Assembly (NCBI GenBank): GCA_947595345.1
Contig: CANQEQ010000003.1
Coordinates: 1-34,562, forward strand
Length of the DNA stretch: 34,562 nucleotides
Direction: 5' to 3'
Source of the DNA: an uncultured Bacilli bacterium
Lineage (GTDB): Bacteria > Bacillota_I > Bacilli_A > RF39 > UBA660
The notes under the pieces are model-generated. The model was not told the DNA's origin, did not search any database, and worked only from the letters and a program-made list of their open reading frames with translations. Positions 23,123-33,965 of this stretch are shown piece by piece; the first letter of the stretch is position 1, and each line of letters starts with the position of its first letter. The position numbers were made by a program, and so were the translations under genes.

Positions 23123-23422
23123 TTAACCAATTTTTTTAATTTCTACTTTTGTATATGGTTGTCTATGTCCTTGTTTCTTTCTAGTAGAAGTTGTATTAGG
23201 CTTATATTTAAAGATTTTGATTTTAGAACCTTTGCCATGTTTTATGATTTCTCCAAGAACACGAGCTCCTTTTACATTTGGGTTTCCAACTGTTTTATCT
23301 AACATAAGTACTTCGTCAAAAGTAACTTTATCGCCAGCTTTACCATCTAATTTTTCAACATAGATAACGCTACCTTCTTCTACACAGTATTGTTTACCAC
23401 CTGTTTTAATAACTGCTTTCAT
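23123..23422 (-). CDS. rplU: Ribosomal protein bL21
   Basis: 99 aa, usual length. The IKTGGKQYCVEEGSVIYVEKL start and the KYKPNTTSTRKKQGHRQPYTKVEI end are diagnostic. Ribosome-binding site AGGAGG precedes ATG 23422. It leads the rplU-prp-rpmA-cdsA-rseP transcript behind a roughly 95-base structured leader. Confidence 0.98.
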   Translation of the reverse strand: MKAVIKTGGKQYCVEEGSVIYVEKLDGKAGDKVTFDEVLMLDKTVGNPNVKGARVLGEIIKHGKGSKIKIFKYKPNTTSTRKKQGHRQPYTKVEIKKIG

Positions 23423-23516
23423 ATATTCCTCCTTTTCTTAAGACTCGCTTTTAAGGTACAAATAAATTGTTTCTAAACCTTTTCAATGCGGTTTGAGCTA
23501 GAAGGCTTCAAACATA
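23423..23516 (-). promoter_or_regulatory. Structured rplU leader (candidate L21 leader)
   Basis: The 5' untranslated region can form two hairpins. AAACC/GGTTT lies at 23475-23494 and CTTAA/TTAAG at 23437-23455, the latter close to the ribosome-binding site. Known Bacillota rplU transcripts carry an L21 leader that is thought to allow autoregulation. I infer the same here from position and structure, not from a matched motif. Confidence 0.5.
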
Positions 23517-23519
23517 TAG

Positions 23520-23548
23520 ATTTTACCATATAATATATGATAAGTCAA
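23520..23548 (-). promoter_or_regulatory. Promoter of the rplU operon
   Basis: Minus strand: TTGACT (23543-23548), 17-bp spacer, TGG-TAAAAT (-10 at 23520-23525). It is a strong extended promoter, as expected for a ribosomal protein operon. Confidence 0.78.
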
Positions 23549-23559
23549 ACAAAATTTGC

Positions 23560-25335
23560 CTATTTTAAGCTTTTTCTTTTAATAATTTCCTCTGGTTTTA
23601 AAACTTCATACCTTGTTTCTATTTTATAATCAAACTTTAAAGGTAAAATTAACCCTGTTATATCTTTTATATTAGGAAGTCTTAAAGTCTCCTCTTCTAT
23701 TTTAGAAGGTAAAATTGTATTAGATATTTCTCTTAACCAATAAATATTTGCTTTTTTTCCAATATAATCAGGTAAAGTAGAATTAATTAATTTAATAGCA
23801 CCCAACAAATTCAAGTCATCTCTTAAAAACTTTGGAAAAGAAATATTTTTAAGTGTTGCATCTTCAATTAAAAAACAATGCATATTTAAAGAGCCATATA
23901 CTTCTTTTGGAAAAACTATATTATCTAGAAAACCATTTACATCAAATTCAATATTGCCATACAGTTTTTCAGTTAAAAATTTAATATTACTTCTATCTTG
24001 CCAATTAGAAATTTTTATATTTCCAACTATAATTTGAGGTGTTATTAATAAGTTATCACTATCTAATAAAAAATCACCATAATAAACTTTAGTTAGATTT
24101 GTAATTTCTGTTTCTAAAATAGCTACTTCTTCTTTTTGACAATTAAAAATTCTACTTAAATCACTTTTAATATCCCGACTTTTAATTATTTCAGAAACTC
24201 TAATATCCCCATCATAGCCAAAGCCAATTATTTTATTATCAAGTTGATATAAAAATCTAAGTTCTTCTATACTTAATTCTTGTTTAGCTTCATTTTTATT
24301 ATAAATTTTTGTAACCTCTTCCATATCTTCTAATTTTTTATAATGTAAATCATTTTTAAAATAGGTATTAAGCATAGTTTTTAAAACATCTGTAAGTTCT
24401 GCTTCTACATCTTGACTCTTCCCTACTCCTCTTATTTCAGCAATTGCTTCATCTTCCATCCGAATAGCAATTCTTGGTATTTTAAATTCGTTATTCAAAT
24501 CTTTGGTAAAATAGATATAAAAGTCTCCCCTTTCAAGTTGACTTTTAGCAACACTTAAAACAGCTGTACACCAATTAGTATTATAACCTTCTATGCTTTC
24601 TACAAGTAAAGACGGATTACTAAACCTTGGAAAATGAACCCACATTCCTTCGTTATTTTCATTTTCTTTTTCATCTTTAGTAATTTTCTTTAAAAAATAA
24701 GGATAAATTTTAGAAAATGAACCAGTTTTAACAATATTTTCTATTTCTTTATTATCTAAGGCATCATTCTTTAAATATTCTATTAAATTTAAAACAGTTT
24801 CTTGAAAGGCTTTTTTATTAAGTTCTATAAAAGGTGATATAGTATTTATTCCTCTATGATTATAAGAATTAGTATCATCATCAAAGCTTCCGATTTTAAG
24901 TATTCCTTTTAAAGCCCAATATTTAACCCAAAAAGGATAAGTATTGTCTTCTAAAAACAAATAATTAAGCCAAACATCTAAACTTTTCTTTTGATTATTG
25001 ATTACTTCTTTAATGACACTTTCTTCATAATTATCATTTAAAAGATTACCATAACCTTTTTCTAATAAAATTCTTTTTCTAAATTCTAAATAACTATTTT
25101 TTATATTTTCTTTTTTTATAATATATTTAGAATATATAACTTCATATAAATATTTAAGGTGCTCTTTAGCAAGTAATTTAGTTTCTATAGCTTCTAATTT
25201 CTTAAGATATTCTTTAATATTTTCAAATTTAGCATATTTATTACCACTTGTATGTCTTAATAATTGAAAGTTTAAATATAAACTTTTATCTAAATTAGAA
25301 ATTAATCTAATAGCTTTAGTTTCTAAATTCTCCAT
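23560..25335 (-). CDS. Large modular protein of unknown function with LRR/solenoid-like C-terminus
   Basis: 591 aa, soluble, with no signal peptide. Three regions can be seen. Residues 1-240 are helical and charged. Residues about 250-325 hold a compact motif with W255-C256-T257 (NWCTA), FYIYF, PRIAIRM and AEIRG, resembling a beta-strand domain found in some phage- and plasmid-encoded proteins. Residues about 410-575 show spaced repeats such as FPKEVYGSLNM, FPKFLRDDLNL and LPDYIGKKANI. These read like a short leucine-rich or beta-solenoid array ending in LPSKIEEETLRLPNI. GGTGAT precedes ATG 25335. A terminator separates it from the xseB operon, and rplU has its own promoter, so it is a free-standing insertion among housekeeping genes. 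I do not recognise a named family. Confidence 0.75.
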   Translation of the reverse strand: MENLETKAIRLISNLDKSLYLNFQLLRHTSGNKYAKFENIKEYLKKLEAIETKLLAKEHLKYLYEVIYSKYIIKKENIKNSYLEFRKRILLEKGYGNLLNDNYEESVIKEVINNQKKSLDVWLNYLFLEDNTYPFWVKYWALKGILKIGSFDDDTNSYNHRGINTISPFIELNKKAFQETVLNLIEYLKNDALDNKEIENIVKTGSFSKIYPYFLKKITKDEKENENNEGMWVHFPRFSNPSLLVESIEGYNTNWCTAVLSVAKSQLERGDFYIYFTKDLNNEFKIPRIAIRMEDEAIAEIRGVGKSQDVEAELTDVLKTMLNTYFKNDLHYKKLEDMEEVTKIYNKNEAKQELSIEELRFLYQLDNKIIGFGYDGDIRVSEIIKSRDIKSDLSRIFNCQKEEVAILETEITNLTKVYYGDFLLDSDNLLITPQIIVGNIKISNWQDRSNIKFLTEKLYGNIEFDVNGFLDNIVFPKEVYGSLNMHCFLIEDATLKNISFPKFLRDDLNLLGAIKLINSTLPDYIGKKANIYWLREISNTILPSKIEEETLRLPNIKDITGLILPLKFDYKIETRYEVLKPEEIIKRKSLK

Positions 25336-25378
25336 AAAAAATCACCACTTGTTAGAATATCATACTTTTTAAATAAAA

Positions 25379-25424
25379 AAAATAAAAACTTAAGATTTTA
25401 TAGTAAAAAACTATAAACTTAAGC
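25379..25424 (-). terminator. Terminator of the nusB-xseA-xseB operon
   Basis: An imperfect stem has CTTAAG at both ends (25389-25394 and 25418-25423) and TATAG/CTATA inside. On the minus strand it is followed by a T-rich run. Confidence 0.75.
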
Positions 25425-25425
25425 T

Positions 25426-26265
25426 TTATTTACTTTCTTTATAAGTAGTTTTAATACTTTCTAAAGTTAAATTCTTATTAATTAATTTTAAATCAACAAC
25501 TTTACTTCCAACATATCTATAAGTGTCATTGTCTTTAGCTTCAAGAGCAAAAACTAAGGTAACTTTATCTCCATCTATCTTTTGATAAGCTAAATTATGT
25601 CTTAAAGTTTCAAATTCAAACTCTGAGAAAGTTAATACTATATTAGAATTATCTTTATATAATCTAATTGTATCTCCCTCAAGATATTCTTGCTCAATTG
25701 TTAAATCAACATCACTTATATTTAAGTAATTTTTAAAATAAGTTAAAAGTGTCTTATAAGGCATAGTAATCTTCGTTGTTAAACAATATTTTTCATTATC
25801 ACTACACATTTCTAATTTATCAGTACTTCCCCAAATTAAATAAGTAGCTATCTCTGTTAATTTTTGATTATCAATTTTTTCTTTATCATAATTTTCTACA
25901 TTATATAACATAACTCTAGAATTAATTATATAATTATCAATCATAGTTGAAGTAATACCATAATCTTTTTCAGATATATCTTTACAAGCATCTTGTAAAT
26001 TATCTTGAGGTTTTAAATAATTATTATAAATTACAAATATTATTAATAATAAGGCTATAAATATAATAATTGTAAAAAGAATACTCGTAAATGATTGAAT
26101 AGTATCATTCAAATTTTTAGGTTTATTCTCTTTAATTGGTTCAACTTCTAAAATCTTTTTTCCTTTAGTACTTTTAGAAGTAGTCGTCTTTTTAGTCTCA
26201 TTTGTCTTTAAATTTTTTTTATTTTTAGTATTTTTATTTGGTGTTTTTTTCTTATTGTCTTTCAT
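25426..26265 (-). CDS. Single-pass membrane protein with Lys-rich N-terminus, unknown function
   Basis: 279 aa. Residues 1-55 are a Lys/Asn/Thr-rich cytoplasmic tail. One hydrophobic helix follows (about 60-82, SILFTIIIFIALLLIIFVIY). The outer part of about 195 residues contains a few Cys (DACKD, EMCSDNEKYC) and alternating strand-like stretches. I recognise no domain. It is the last gene of the nusB-xseA-xseB transcript, five bases after xseB, and a terminator follows. The position in a transcription/DNA-repair operon gives no direct hint of role. A lineage-specific surface protein is the simplest reading. Confidence 0.7.
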   Translation of the reverse strand: MKDNKKKTPNKNTKNKKNLKTNETKKTTTSKSTKGKKILEVEPIKENKPKNLNDTIQSFTSILFTIIIFIALLLIIFVIYNNYLKPQDNLQDACKDISEKDYGITSTMIDNYIINSRVMLYNVENYDKEKIDNQKLTEIATYLIWGSTDKLEMCSDNEKYCLTTKITMPYKTLLTYFKNYLNISDVDLTIEQEYLEGDTIRLYKDNSNIVLTFSEFEFETLRHNLAYQKIDGDKVTLVFALEAKDNDTYRYVGSKVVDLKLINKNLTLESIKTTYKESK

Positions 26266-31174: not shown

Positions 31175-31202
31175 AAAAAAGAATTAGTTTAGGCTAATTC
31201 TT
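31175..31202 (-). terminator. Terminator of valS
   Basis: A nine-base stem AAGAATTAG/CTAATTCTT (31179-31187 and 31194-31202) overlaps the valS stop codon. On the minus strand a run of T follows. Confidence 0.8.
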
Positions 31203-33725
31203 TAATAATTTTTCAAGTAAATTTTCTTCTTCTTTTAATTTTTCTCTTTCACCATCTACTAATTCTTTAGGAGCTTTAGTTAAGTAACCTTCATTACTTA
31301 ATAACTTCTGACGTCTTGCTATACTACTTTTTAAGTTTTCTATTTGATTTTCTAAAAGCTTTTTATCACCTTCGGTTAACTCTTTTTCATAATAAATATC
31401 TAAACTATAATAATTATCAGTAACCGGGTATTTGGTAGTATTAATATCTTTTTCTGTAATATGGCTTTCTAACTTTAACATTTTAATTACTAAATCTGGT
31501 ATATTAGTATTAAATTTAACTTTAAAGTCTTTACCTATATTATTTTCTTGTTTTACATTTCTAAATAATTTTATAAAATCTACAATATGAGTAACTTCTT
31601 CCTCTTCTTTTTTAAAGAGCATTTTAGAATTATATTTAGGATAATCACTTATCATTATATTAGGACTATCAGAAAAAGGCAATTTAGAATAGATTTCATC
31701 AGTTACATAAGGCATTAAAGGATGTAACATTTTTAAAACATTTATAAGAACATAATATAAAGTAGATAAGGTACTTGAAGCAGTTAAACTAAATTTAGCA
31801 ACTTCTATGTAAGTATCACAGAAATCACTCCAAATAAAGTTATATAAAATGCTATTAACATTATTAAATTCATACTTATCCATATATTTTATAACATCAC
31901 GTATAGTTTTATTAAGTCTTGTAATAATCCATTTATCTTCTGGCTTTAAATTAGTTAATTTATAATCACTTTCTTTAAAATTTTCCATATTTAAAAGGCA
32001 AAAACGAGAAGCATTCCATAATTTATTTATAAAGTTCCAAGAAGCTTTAACTTTGGTTGTATCATATCTTAAATCTGTTCCTATACTAGTTGATGTTACT
32101 AAAGTATAACGAAGAGCATCAGCACCATATTCTTCTATTACATCCATTGGGTCAATTCCATTACCTAAAGATTTACTCATTTTAAGACCATTTTTATCAC
32201 GAATTAAACCATGAATTATACATTCTTTAAAAGGTCTTTCCTTCATAAATTCTAAGCCTTGGAAAGTCATACGATTAACCCAAAAAGGAATTATATCATA
32301 AGCTGTAACTAAACAATCGTTAGGATAATATCTTTTAAGTAATTCGGTATTATCAGGAAAACCTAATGTTGAAAAAGGCCACAAAGCACTTGAAAACCAA
32401 GTATCTAAAACATCCTCATCTTGTACCCATCCTTCTCCTTTTGGAGCTTCCATTCCAACATAAACTTCCTCCCCTTTATACCAAGCCGGAATTCTATGTC
32501 CCCACCAAAGTTGACGAGAAATACACCAGTCATAGGTAATTTCCATCCAATGTTCCATAATTTTTTCAAAACGACGAGGAACAAAATTAACTTTTGTATC
32601 TTTATTTTTTTGATTTTTTAAAACATTATCAGCTAAAGGACGCATTTTAACAAACCATTGACGTGATAAATAAGGTTCTACCATGGCATTAGTCCTTTCA
32701 CTATGACCAACTGAATGAGTTATTTCTTCAATATTAATTAATAAATCTTTATCTTTTAATTCTTTAACTAATTCACGTCTACAATCAAATCTATCCATTC
32801 CTTTATAATAGATAGCATTTTCATTCATAGTTCCATCAGGATTAATTACAACAATTCTTTCTAGATTATGACGATTTCCAACTTCAAAATCGTTAGGGTC
32901 ATGAGCTGGAGTTATTTTAACTACACCTGTTCCAAAGTCAGGGTCAGCATGAATATCAGCAATAACCGGAATTTTTTTATTTACAATTGGTAAAATAACA
33001 TTTTTTCCAATATATTTTTTATAACGTGAATCTTTAGGATTAACAGCAACAGCTGTATCTCCAAATAAAGTTTCTGGTCTTGTAGTTGCAACTTCTAAAT
33101 AGTCACTACCATCTTCTAAAAAGTATTTTATATGGTAAAACGCACCTTTTACTTCTTTATAAATTACTTCTTCATTAGAAAGAGCTGTCATAGCTTCAGG
33201 GTCCCAATTAATAATTCTTTCACCCCGATAGATTAAACCTTTATTATATAAAGTAACAAATACATGTCTAACAGCTTTATTTAAGCCCTCATCTAAAGTA
33301 AATCTTTCTTTATCATAGTCAAGTGATAATCCAAGTTTAGCCCATTGCTTATGAATATTAAGTGCATATTCTTCTTTCCATTTCCAAGCAACTTTTAACC
33401 ATTCATCTCTTTCCATAGAGCGAGGATTAATTCCTTCGTCTTTTAATTTTTTATCAATTTTGGCTTGGGTTGCAATTCCAGCATGGTCCATACCAGGTAA
33501 CCATAAAGTATCATAACCTTGCATTCTTTTATAACGAATAATTGTATCTTGAATACCTGTATCCCAAGCATGTCCTAAATGTAATTTTCCGGTTACATTA
33601 GGAGGTGGTATAACTATACAAAACGGCTTTTTACTTAAATCACCACTTTTAAAATACCCACTTTTAAGCCAATTATCATACTTTAATGCTTCTACTTTAG
33701 AATGTTCATATTTATTATCTAACAT
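31194..33725 (-). CDS. valS: Valyl-tRNA synthetase
   Basis: 843 aa, a compact bacterial ValRS. It charges tRNA-Val. The class I signatures are H49-LGH52 and K515-MSKS519. In between is the editing domain (ATTRPETLFGDTAVAVNP, then KITPAHDPNDFEVG). The anticodon-binding domain (DKWIITRLNKTI to LPYVTDEIY) follows, and the C-terminal coiled-coil arm (LTEGDKKLLENQIENLKSSIARRQKLL) completes the enzyme. GGAGGA precedes ATG 33725. It has a T-box leader and its own terminator, so it is monocistronic. Confidence 0.98.
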   Translation of the reverse strand: MLDNKYEHSKVEALKYDNWLKSGYFKSGDLSKKPFCIVIPPPNVTGKLHLGHAWDTGIQDTIIRYKRMQGYDTLWLPGMDHAGIATQAKIDKKLKDEGINPRSMERDEWLKVAWKWKEEYALNIHKQWAKLGLSLDYDKERFTLDEGLNKAVRHVFVTLYNKGLIYRGERIINWDPEAMTALSNEEVIYKEVKGAFYHIKYFLEDGSDYLEVATTRPETLFGDTAVAVNPKDSRYKKYIGKNVILPIVNKKIPVIADIHADPDFGTGVVKITPAHDPNDFEVGNRHNLERIVVINPDGTMNENAIYYKGMDRFDCRRELVKELKDKDLLINIEEITHSVGHSERTNAMVEPYLSRQWFVKMRPLADNVLKNQKNKDTKVNFVPRRFEKIMEHWMEITYDWCISRQLWWGHRIPAWYKGEEVYVGMEAPKGEGWVQDEDVLDTWFSSALWPFSTLGFPDNTELLKRYYPNDCLVTAYDIIPFWVNRMTFQGLEFMKERPFKECIIHGLIRDKNGLKMSKSLGNGIDPMDVIEEYGADALRYTLVTSTSIGTDLRYDTTKVKASWNFINKLWNASRFCLLNMENFKESDYKLTNLKPEDKWIITRLNKTIRDVIKYMDKYEFNNVNSILYNFIWSDFCDTYIEVAKFSLTASSTLSTLYYVLINVLKMLHPLMPYVTDEIYSKLPFSDSPNIMISDYPKYNSKMLFKKEEEEVTHIVDFIKLFRNVKQENNIGKDFKVKFNTNIPDLVIKMLKLESHITEKDINTTKYPVTDNYYSLDIYYEKELTEGDKKLLENQIENLKSSIARRQKLLSNEGYLTKAPKELVDGEREKLKEEENLLEKLLKN

Positions 33726-33739
33726 AATTCCTCCTTAAA

Positions 33740-33965
33740 AATATAAAAAACACGATTTTCCAAAGGACGAAAAACCGTGTTACCACCTTAATTTGTAATA
33801 TACATTACCTTAAAATCTTAATGCGATTAACAATATATTTTACTAAAGTTCAAATATATACCTCCAAAGCTACCTTCTATTATCTAATTATTAGTTTGCA
33901 CCACCCACTAACTCTCTTAAAATCTTGATAATATACTCCTCTTTTTCATAGGTTTGTCTATATAT
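33740..33965 (-). promoter_or_regulatory. T-box riboswitch leader of valS, valine specifier
   Basis: Minus strand: AAGGTGGTAACACGG (33775-33789) is the T-box core. A terminator stem (33751-33760 with 33769-33779) ends in a T run at 33745-33750. A GTA (Val) specifier lies at 33871-33873, preceded by GAAG and followed by GC and GGAG. This is the same arrangement as in the alanine leader. The leader should couple valS transcription to the charging of tRNA-Val. Confidence 0.9.

Follow-up and report, generated by a model that had tools for sequence, protein, structure and literature searches.

An accessory protein family that joins a PcfJ-related domain, shared with phage polyvalent proteins, to a fast-changing solenoid

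A gene of an uncultured Bacilli bacterium, found next to rplU, encodes a 591-residue protein that belongs to an accessory family in which a domain related to PcfJ is followed by a C-terminal solenoid that changes quickly. The same domain, which we call the WCTA domain, is shared with the polyvalent proteins of phages. The WCTA-solenoid family has no name, and no family of Pfam, PHROG, NCBIfam, PADLOC or the PDB covers it. We regard this as a real finding that is out of the ordinary. The gene lies in a stretch of 34,562 nucleotides, referred to here as the window, and the features described below are listed in Table 1.

Table 1. Positions in the window of the 591-residue gene, the parts of its product and the adjacent signals
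Feature	Coordinates	Strand	Basis
591-residue gene, WCTA-solenoid family member	23560..25335	(-)	ORF and translation
N-terminal helical part, residues 1-225, including invariant R161, F207 and Y211	24661..25335	(-)	AlphaFold2, invariant columns
WCTA alpha/beta domain, residues 226-328 (b-a-a-b-b-b-a), PcfJ-related, predicted GNAT-like topology	24352..24660	(-)	
T-N-W-C motif, residues 253-256; T, W and C invariant in 62/62	24568..24579	(-)	
Conserved helical linker, residues 329-400, 75% identical to nearest relative	24136..24351	(-)	
Predicted C-terminal beta-solenoid, residues 401-591	23563..24135	(-)	AlphaFold2, structural aligner, 21-residue units in relatives' tails
AT-rich hairpin and T-run, intrinsic-terminator-like end of the operon of the upstream 279-residue gene	25380..25431	(-)	
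Promoter-like TTGACT-17-TAAAAT between the 591-residue gene and rplU	23520..23548	(-)	

The gene, its locus and its distribution

The open reading frame has 591 codons and an ATG start. Its translation contains NWCTA, FYIYF, PRIAIRM and AEIRG, together with FPKEVYGSLNM and LPDYIGKKANI, which are the motifs (the last two as FPKxxxGSLN- and LPxxIGxxANI-like units) that a preliminary description of this DNA had listed. That the frame is a genuine gene, and not a chance reading frame, follows from its nearest relative, a 594-residue protein of another genome of the genus (G014) that is 57% identical over its length, and from 24 columns that are invariant over 62 aligned sequences. The gene has rplU (23123-23422) on one side and a gene for 279 residues, then xseB, on the other, the position given in that description. 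Between the 279-residue gene and the 591-residue gene, the terminator-like hairpin has a folding energy of -14.3 kcal/mol (z -4.73) that none of 200 shuffles equalled. This hairpin with its T-run upstream, and the promoter-like site before rplU, indicate that the gene is its own unit, in line with the separate transcription signals that had been suggested. Its G+C content of 23.3%, against 25.1% for the window, gives no hint of a foreign composition, and nothing about the gene itself points to a prophage location. The protein is probably cytosolic, since its sequence reveals neither a signal peptide nor a membrane helix. Elsewhere in the window, a T-box leader (RF00230, 117.5 bits) lies at 33760-33958 (-), upstream of the ORF at 31194-33725.

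The protein had been called an orphan, a label that did not survive a pattern scan of 84,980 species genomes, which returned 140 stretches and, by one motif, at least 130 relatives. Of the 130 relatives, 79 loci were retained; the titles of the records name Bacilli, several Patescibacteria, a member of the Bacteriovoracaceae, a member of the Caenarcanales, a proteobacterium and a Nanoarchaeota metagenome-assembled genome, single taxa such as the last being subject to possible mislabelling by binning. A query with the single protein matched 9 of 98 related genomes, its own included; one of these matches (G012, 8.8e-5) covers residues 323-570 only, and the ORF concerned lacks the WCTA motif. The domain profile matched 24 of the 193 genomes in the same taxonomic family (one only at 1.8e-4) and 21 of 286 in the Patescibacteria phylum to which locus L071 belongs; in a phylum-wide sample, the gene's own genome was the single match among 392. 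A check for paralogues found one match in the same genome, the protein itself. Several divergent members of the family (G850:C1:83863, G806:C61 and G858:C6; E 1e-13 to 1e-17) were noted, some beside a second copy, which might bridge to other families.

The interval between the 279-residue gene and rplU (23423-25425 in the window, compared with 16 further genomes of the genus) is a variable site, which may be empty or hold guaB and guaA, the 591-residue gene or other ORFs. A WCTA-solenoid gene occupies it in 2 of the 17 genomes (G000 and G014). It is empty in three (G001, G011 and G016), with about 136-147 bp between the flanking genes, and G011 has a relative elsewhere in its genome despite the empty site. 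Two genes that we read as guaB and guaA are present in five (G002, G003, G005, G007 and G010), the content differs in three (G004, G006 and G009), and the locus was unresolved or unlinked in four (G008, G012, G013 and G015). On the basis of this presence and absence, and of the patchiness within the taxonomic family, the WCTA-solenoid family is accessory and patchily distributed, as the preliminary description had supposed. In a tree made by a quick method, and incomplete, Bacillota need at least three changes of label, which is no proof of transfer. Across the 79 loci, the neighbours that recur are at most housekeeping genes, each in no more than 7 loci; no partner gene recurs and no defence islands surround the relatives.

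Searches with the 591-residue protein gave no matches in PHROGs, NCBIfam, PADLOC or the sequences of the PDB, and no LPD domain in Pfam. The best Pfam model, the Exu RNase H-like domain (E 0.021), fell below that model's cut-off and was uninformative. When eight members of the family were compared with PADLOC, a single match at E 0.032 emerged. Various Pfam, NCBIfam and PHROG models, such as glutaredoxin-2 C and threonine synthase, each matched 1-3 of the eight, and we took these as chance or repeat artefacts. No clear match to a characterised housekeeping family was found in these five collections, and the proposal of a defence, toxin-like or recognition activity gained no usable match from PADLOC. 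Using tblastn, the protein matched nothing in phages and plasmids; of a relative (P0003), only the repeat tail was matched, in one phage and one plasmid. We found no published description of the family among the freely accessible papers searched.

The WCTA domain, PcfJ and phage polyvalent proteins

An AlphaFold2 model built on 62 sequences had a mean pLDDT of 87.9 and a pTM of 0.75. It places helices up to residue 225 with one short hairpin, which bears out the helical N-terminal part described earlier, followed by an alpha/beta domain at 230-325, further helices to 396 and a solenoid of short strands to about 575. The alignment behind the domain profile held 61 relatives and the window protein, and the alignment list comprised 73 of the 79 loci, those left out containing X residues (L030, L076 and L082) or being truncated (L037, L062 and L063). 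The core of the alpha/beta domain has an invariant T-x-W-C...R...E-x-R-G. R161, T253, C256, R292, E300 and Q308 are the same in all 62 rows, which span several phyla; many other invariant residues are W, G, P, A or I, and an invariant His/Asp pair is absent from the 62 sequences.

The WCTA domain is a distant homologue of PcfJ and has the same fold. In a Foldseek search of BFVD with the model of the core, the top row was a 1494-residue phage protein without a functional name (E 9e-7), and a PcfJ-like protein (E 5.9e-4, probability 0.96) was one of the two rows at E<=0.001. Of the 12 rows at E<=0.05, six are named PcfJ-like and six have no functional name. Comparisons of WCTA and PcfJ profiles gave P 0.13 early on, with 5 sequences, P 0.022 from an alignment with one wrong segment and two sequences fewer, and P 0.01 with hhalign, these three being run without decoys. 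The profile from cellular sequences gave P 0.0052, and 2 of 300 column-shuffled decoys did equally well. The strongest test, with a profile from cellular and phage sequences, gave P 8e-4, and 0 of 400 decoys were as good.

The alignment of the two families is collinear over the domain, with C256 on the PcfJ cysteine and the strands paired (FYIYF on IIxFxR, PRIAIRM on the TxEV strand and AEIRG on xQxRG). Both families have a strand, a helix, an invariant cysteine, a helix, three strands ending in I-x-E/Q-x-R-G and a helix, in that order. In 10 PcfJ sequences, the cysteine is followed by a tyrosine and the third strand has an invariant glutamine, whereas in the WCTA family the cysteine is shared, the invariant E300 stands at the glutamine and the tyrosine is not conserved. 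The families also differ in their N-terminal parts, in the motif around the cysteine (H-C-V-G in PcfJ, W-C-T-A here) and in their ends, as the PcfJ chains examined mostly stop soon after the domain, where the WCTA family has a solenoid or another tail. We place WCTA as a sister family of PcfJ and not a member of it, because HMMER found no match to PF14284 for the window protein at E<=10 or for eight members at E<=1.

PcfJ is widespread in phages and on the plasmids of enterococci, and 562 plasmid and 471 phage records were matched. Among the freely accessible papers that our search covered, we found no functional study or biochemical activity of PcfJ. In phage SM1 (L145, 274-1632 and upstream), a gene annotated as an AcrIIA9-family Cas9 inhibitor is directly before the PcfJ gene.

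Neither the entire protein nor an earlier query (A1) found anything when viral contigs were first scanned. This was a limit of the query, because a scan with the domain profile (A3) found the WCTA domain on 49 contigs, from 108 pattern stretches. In 28 of the 29 contigs examined, the domain is in ORFs of about 1500-3000 codons. The remaining one of the 29 (L158) is a solo form of 694 codons, which has the full N-terminal part and another tail. When two of the giant viral ORFs were searched with Pfam, both carried LPD38 (PF18857), a marker of polyvalent proteins, which are thought to be injected. The accessible text of a survey of polyvalent proteins (Iyer et al. 2017, PMC5512222) treats LPD38 as a phage-only domain and lists GNATs among the domains, and that text has 0 occurrences of PcfJ and no WCTA domain that we could find. 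The window protein shares the WCTA domain with the giant PF18857 ORFs and differs from them as the product of a solo chromosomal gene, 591 residues long and without an LPD match. The earlier idea of a phage-derived protein therefore stands in part: the presence of the domain in phage polyvalent proteins and its relationship to PcfJ agree with it, but the gene itself has no prophage signs. Homology between the tails of the phage and cellular proteins was unsupported (profile comparison, P 0.09 over 12 columns). By eye, one giant phage ORF (L190, 1-7086) has repeats of about 18 residues, of the MSFPVLKTAExI type, after the WCTA domain.

The predicted topology of the WCTA domain resembles that of GNAT transferases. 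Structural re-alignment of the core with VIA gave Z 4.9-6.4 over 85-109 residues for 50 listed rows, the best having Z 6.4 over 90 residues at 3.5 A. Judging by their titles, we take all 50 listed rows to be GNAT-fold proteins, among them VipF, PaiA, HAT1, RimI, MprF and malonyl-CoA decarboxylase. The likeness to these enzymes, including MprF-type aminoacyl transferases, is in the order b1-a1-a2-b2-b3-b4-a3. They differ in that the WCTA model lacks strands corresponding to the other half of a GNAT fold and that sequence similarity is absent: against a GNAT profile of 11 fetched loci that passed the motif filter (PF00583-related), 113 of 150 decoys for WCTA, and 16 of 150 for PcfJ, scored as high. 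A Foldseek search with the core gave no significant match (best E 0.7). The glycine loop of GNATs is Q/R-x-x-G-x-G/A, and as such it is absent from the WCTA domain. In the model, the conserved R-G-x4-Q loop of WCTA lies between the strand and helix equivalent to those on either side of the cofactor loop in GNATs. We consider the GNAT-like topology a fair structural lead from the model, not a result.

The C-terminal solenoid

When the whole model was compared with known structures, only the tail was picked, and the best rows were beta-solenoids with Z 8-10; Foldseek gave no significant match to the whole model. The tail was similar to the pentapeptide solenoid AlbG (Z 10.3, 4.0 A over 166), the LRR of SspH1 (Z 8.7, 5.5 A over 169) and the L1 domain of the insulin receptor (Z 8.6, 3.1 A over 132). 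Relatives have LRR-like units of 21 residues (LPxxIGGxLxLxxLTSAEGL), but no Pfam LRR model matches any of eight members at E<=1. The tail is modelled as a beta-solenoid, which may be of an LRR-like, receptor-L-like or pentapeptide-like class. A C-terminal repeat fold had been expected, and the short strands of the model at about 417-575, with these structural matches, support it.

Tail length evolves fast while the core stays. The window protein is 67% identical to its nearest relative in residues 226-328 and 75% in residues 329-400, and 49% in the tail. Tandem DNA arrays, mostly of 63 bp (21 residues) or multiples, are present in 50 of the 79 related genes; the tail of the window gene has no DNA-level tandem array of its own. 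In five pairs of paralogues, each from the same assembly, core identity is 91-98% and the tails measure 237/363, 281/342, 241/137, 210/146 and 144/270 residues, differences that short-read assembly of repeats could inflate. A sixth such pair (L040/L050) was outside this comparison. Tails of the Patescibacteria type, which are not repeats, hold their length among the pairs listed (187/187 and 182/182), and tail length is also constant in one repeat-tailed group of nearly identical members (L052, L053, L055, L057 and L061). Two other kinds of tail were seen. Patescibacteria-type members (L071, L074, L077 and L079-L087) end in another shared domain, without repeats and some 190-240 residues long, that has an LCPxxxGPxxRLxY-like motif, and a relative of 1082 residues (L065, 3009-6254) has about three units of 97 residues (a 291-bp DNA array, 3.2 copies) besides short units.

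Possible function of the family

We propose, with a probability of roughly 0.4, that the window protein is an accessory protein of the conflict type, in which a PcfJ/GNAT-like domain, probably a transferase, would be aimed by the fast-evolving solenoid. The protein would have three parts, a helical N-terminal scaffold, the WCTA domain with a half-barrel arrangement resembling that of GNATs, and the C-terminal beta-solenoid. The solenoid may bind a target macromolecule, to which the WCTA domain could then transfer an acyl or aminoacyl group from a CoA- or tRNA-like donor. T-x-W-C, R292, E300 and R-G-x4-Q308 would line the site, with the E-I-R-G-x4-Q-N loop after the fourth strand possibly standing where GNATs have their cofactor loop. 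The transferase and its cofactor loop are proposed because of the GNAT-like topology of the model, and the role in conflict, including any part in defence, is suggested by presence and absence, by the turnover of the tails and by the association of the domain with phages and plasmids. Under such a role, phages would inject the domain in its polyvalent form, and bacteria with small genomes may keep, gain and lose the solo copies. Against a conflict-type transferase are the housekeeping surroundings, the lack of a recurrent partner, the low structural scores to GNATs, the missing glycine loop, the lack of support for GNAT by sequence and the mismatch between phage and cellular tails in profile comparison. 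A wider proposal, which we hold to be doubtful, is that WCTA and PcfJ form a new superfamily of transferases on a minimal GNAT core that serves both sides of a conflict, as phage polyvalent proteins and plasmid PcfJ, with solo enzymes in Patescibacteria and reduced-genome Bacilli whose target would be set by the rapidly rearranged solenoid.

A somewhat unlikely alternative is that the WCTA/PcfJ domain is no enzyme but a binding or inhibitor module, and the whole protein a two-sided adaptor that sequesters a target such as an anti-defence or regulatory protein. The absence of an invariant His/Asp pair and of the full GNAT glycine loop, the many invariant W, G, P, A and I residues, the failure of GNAT by sequence and the AcrIIA9-family gene adjoining PcfJ in SM1 would all suit this. 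However, six invariant residues (R161, T253, C256, R292, E300 and Q308) in 62 of 62 sequences across phyla are more invariant polar positions than would usually be retained by a domain that only binds, and all 50 of the best structural rows listed are of the GNAT fold.

We think it improbable that the protein, instead of acting in conflict, has an everyday physiological task as a sensor or modifier, perhaps of ribosomes. Ribosomal genes adjoin the gene both in this genome and in another of the genus, and relatives sit among housekeeping genes; yet further relatives are found at other places, any given neighbour is shared by at most 7 of the 79 loci, and most close genomes are missing the gene. 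Quite improbable is a domesticated or stranded fragment of a phage polyvalent protein without present function, as would fit the domain being common in those proteins, the patchiness of the gene and a window tail without DNA-level repeats, because the reading frame is unbroken and has signals of its own, its core is better conserved than its tail relative to the nearest relative, and solo members of several phyla have the helical N-terminal part in common.

A fold assignment for PcfJ would make the function of PcfJ testable. In addition, the paralogues that differ in their solenoids while their cores are almost the same are a natural set for finding what the solenoid recognises, and they come from Patescibacteria and gut Bacilli, about whose dealings with phages little is known.
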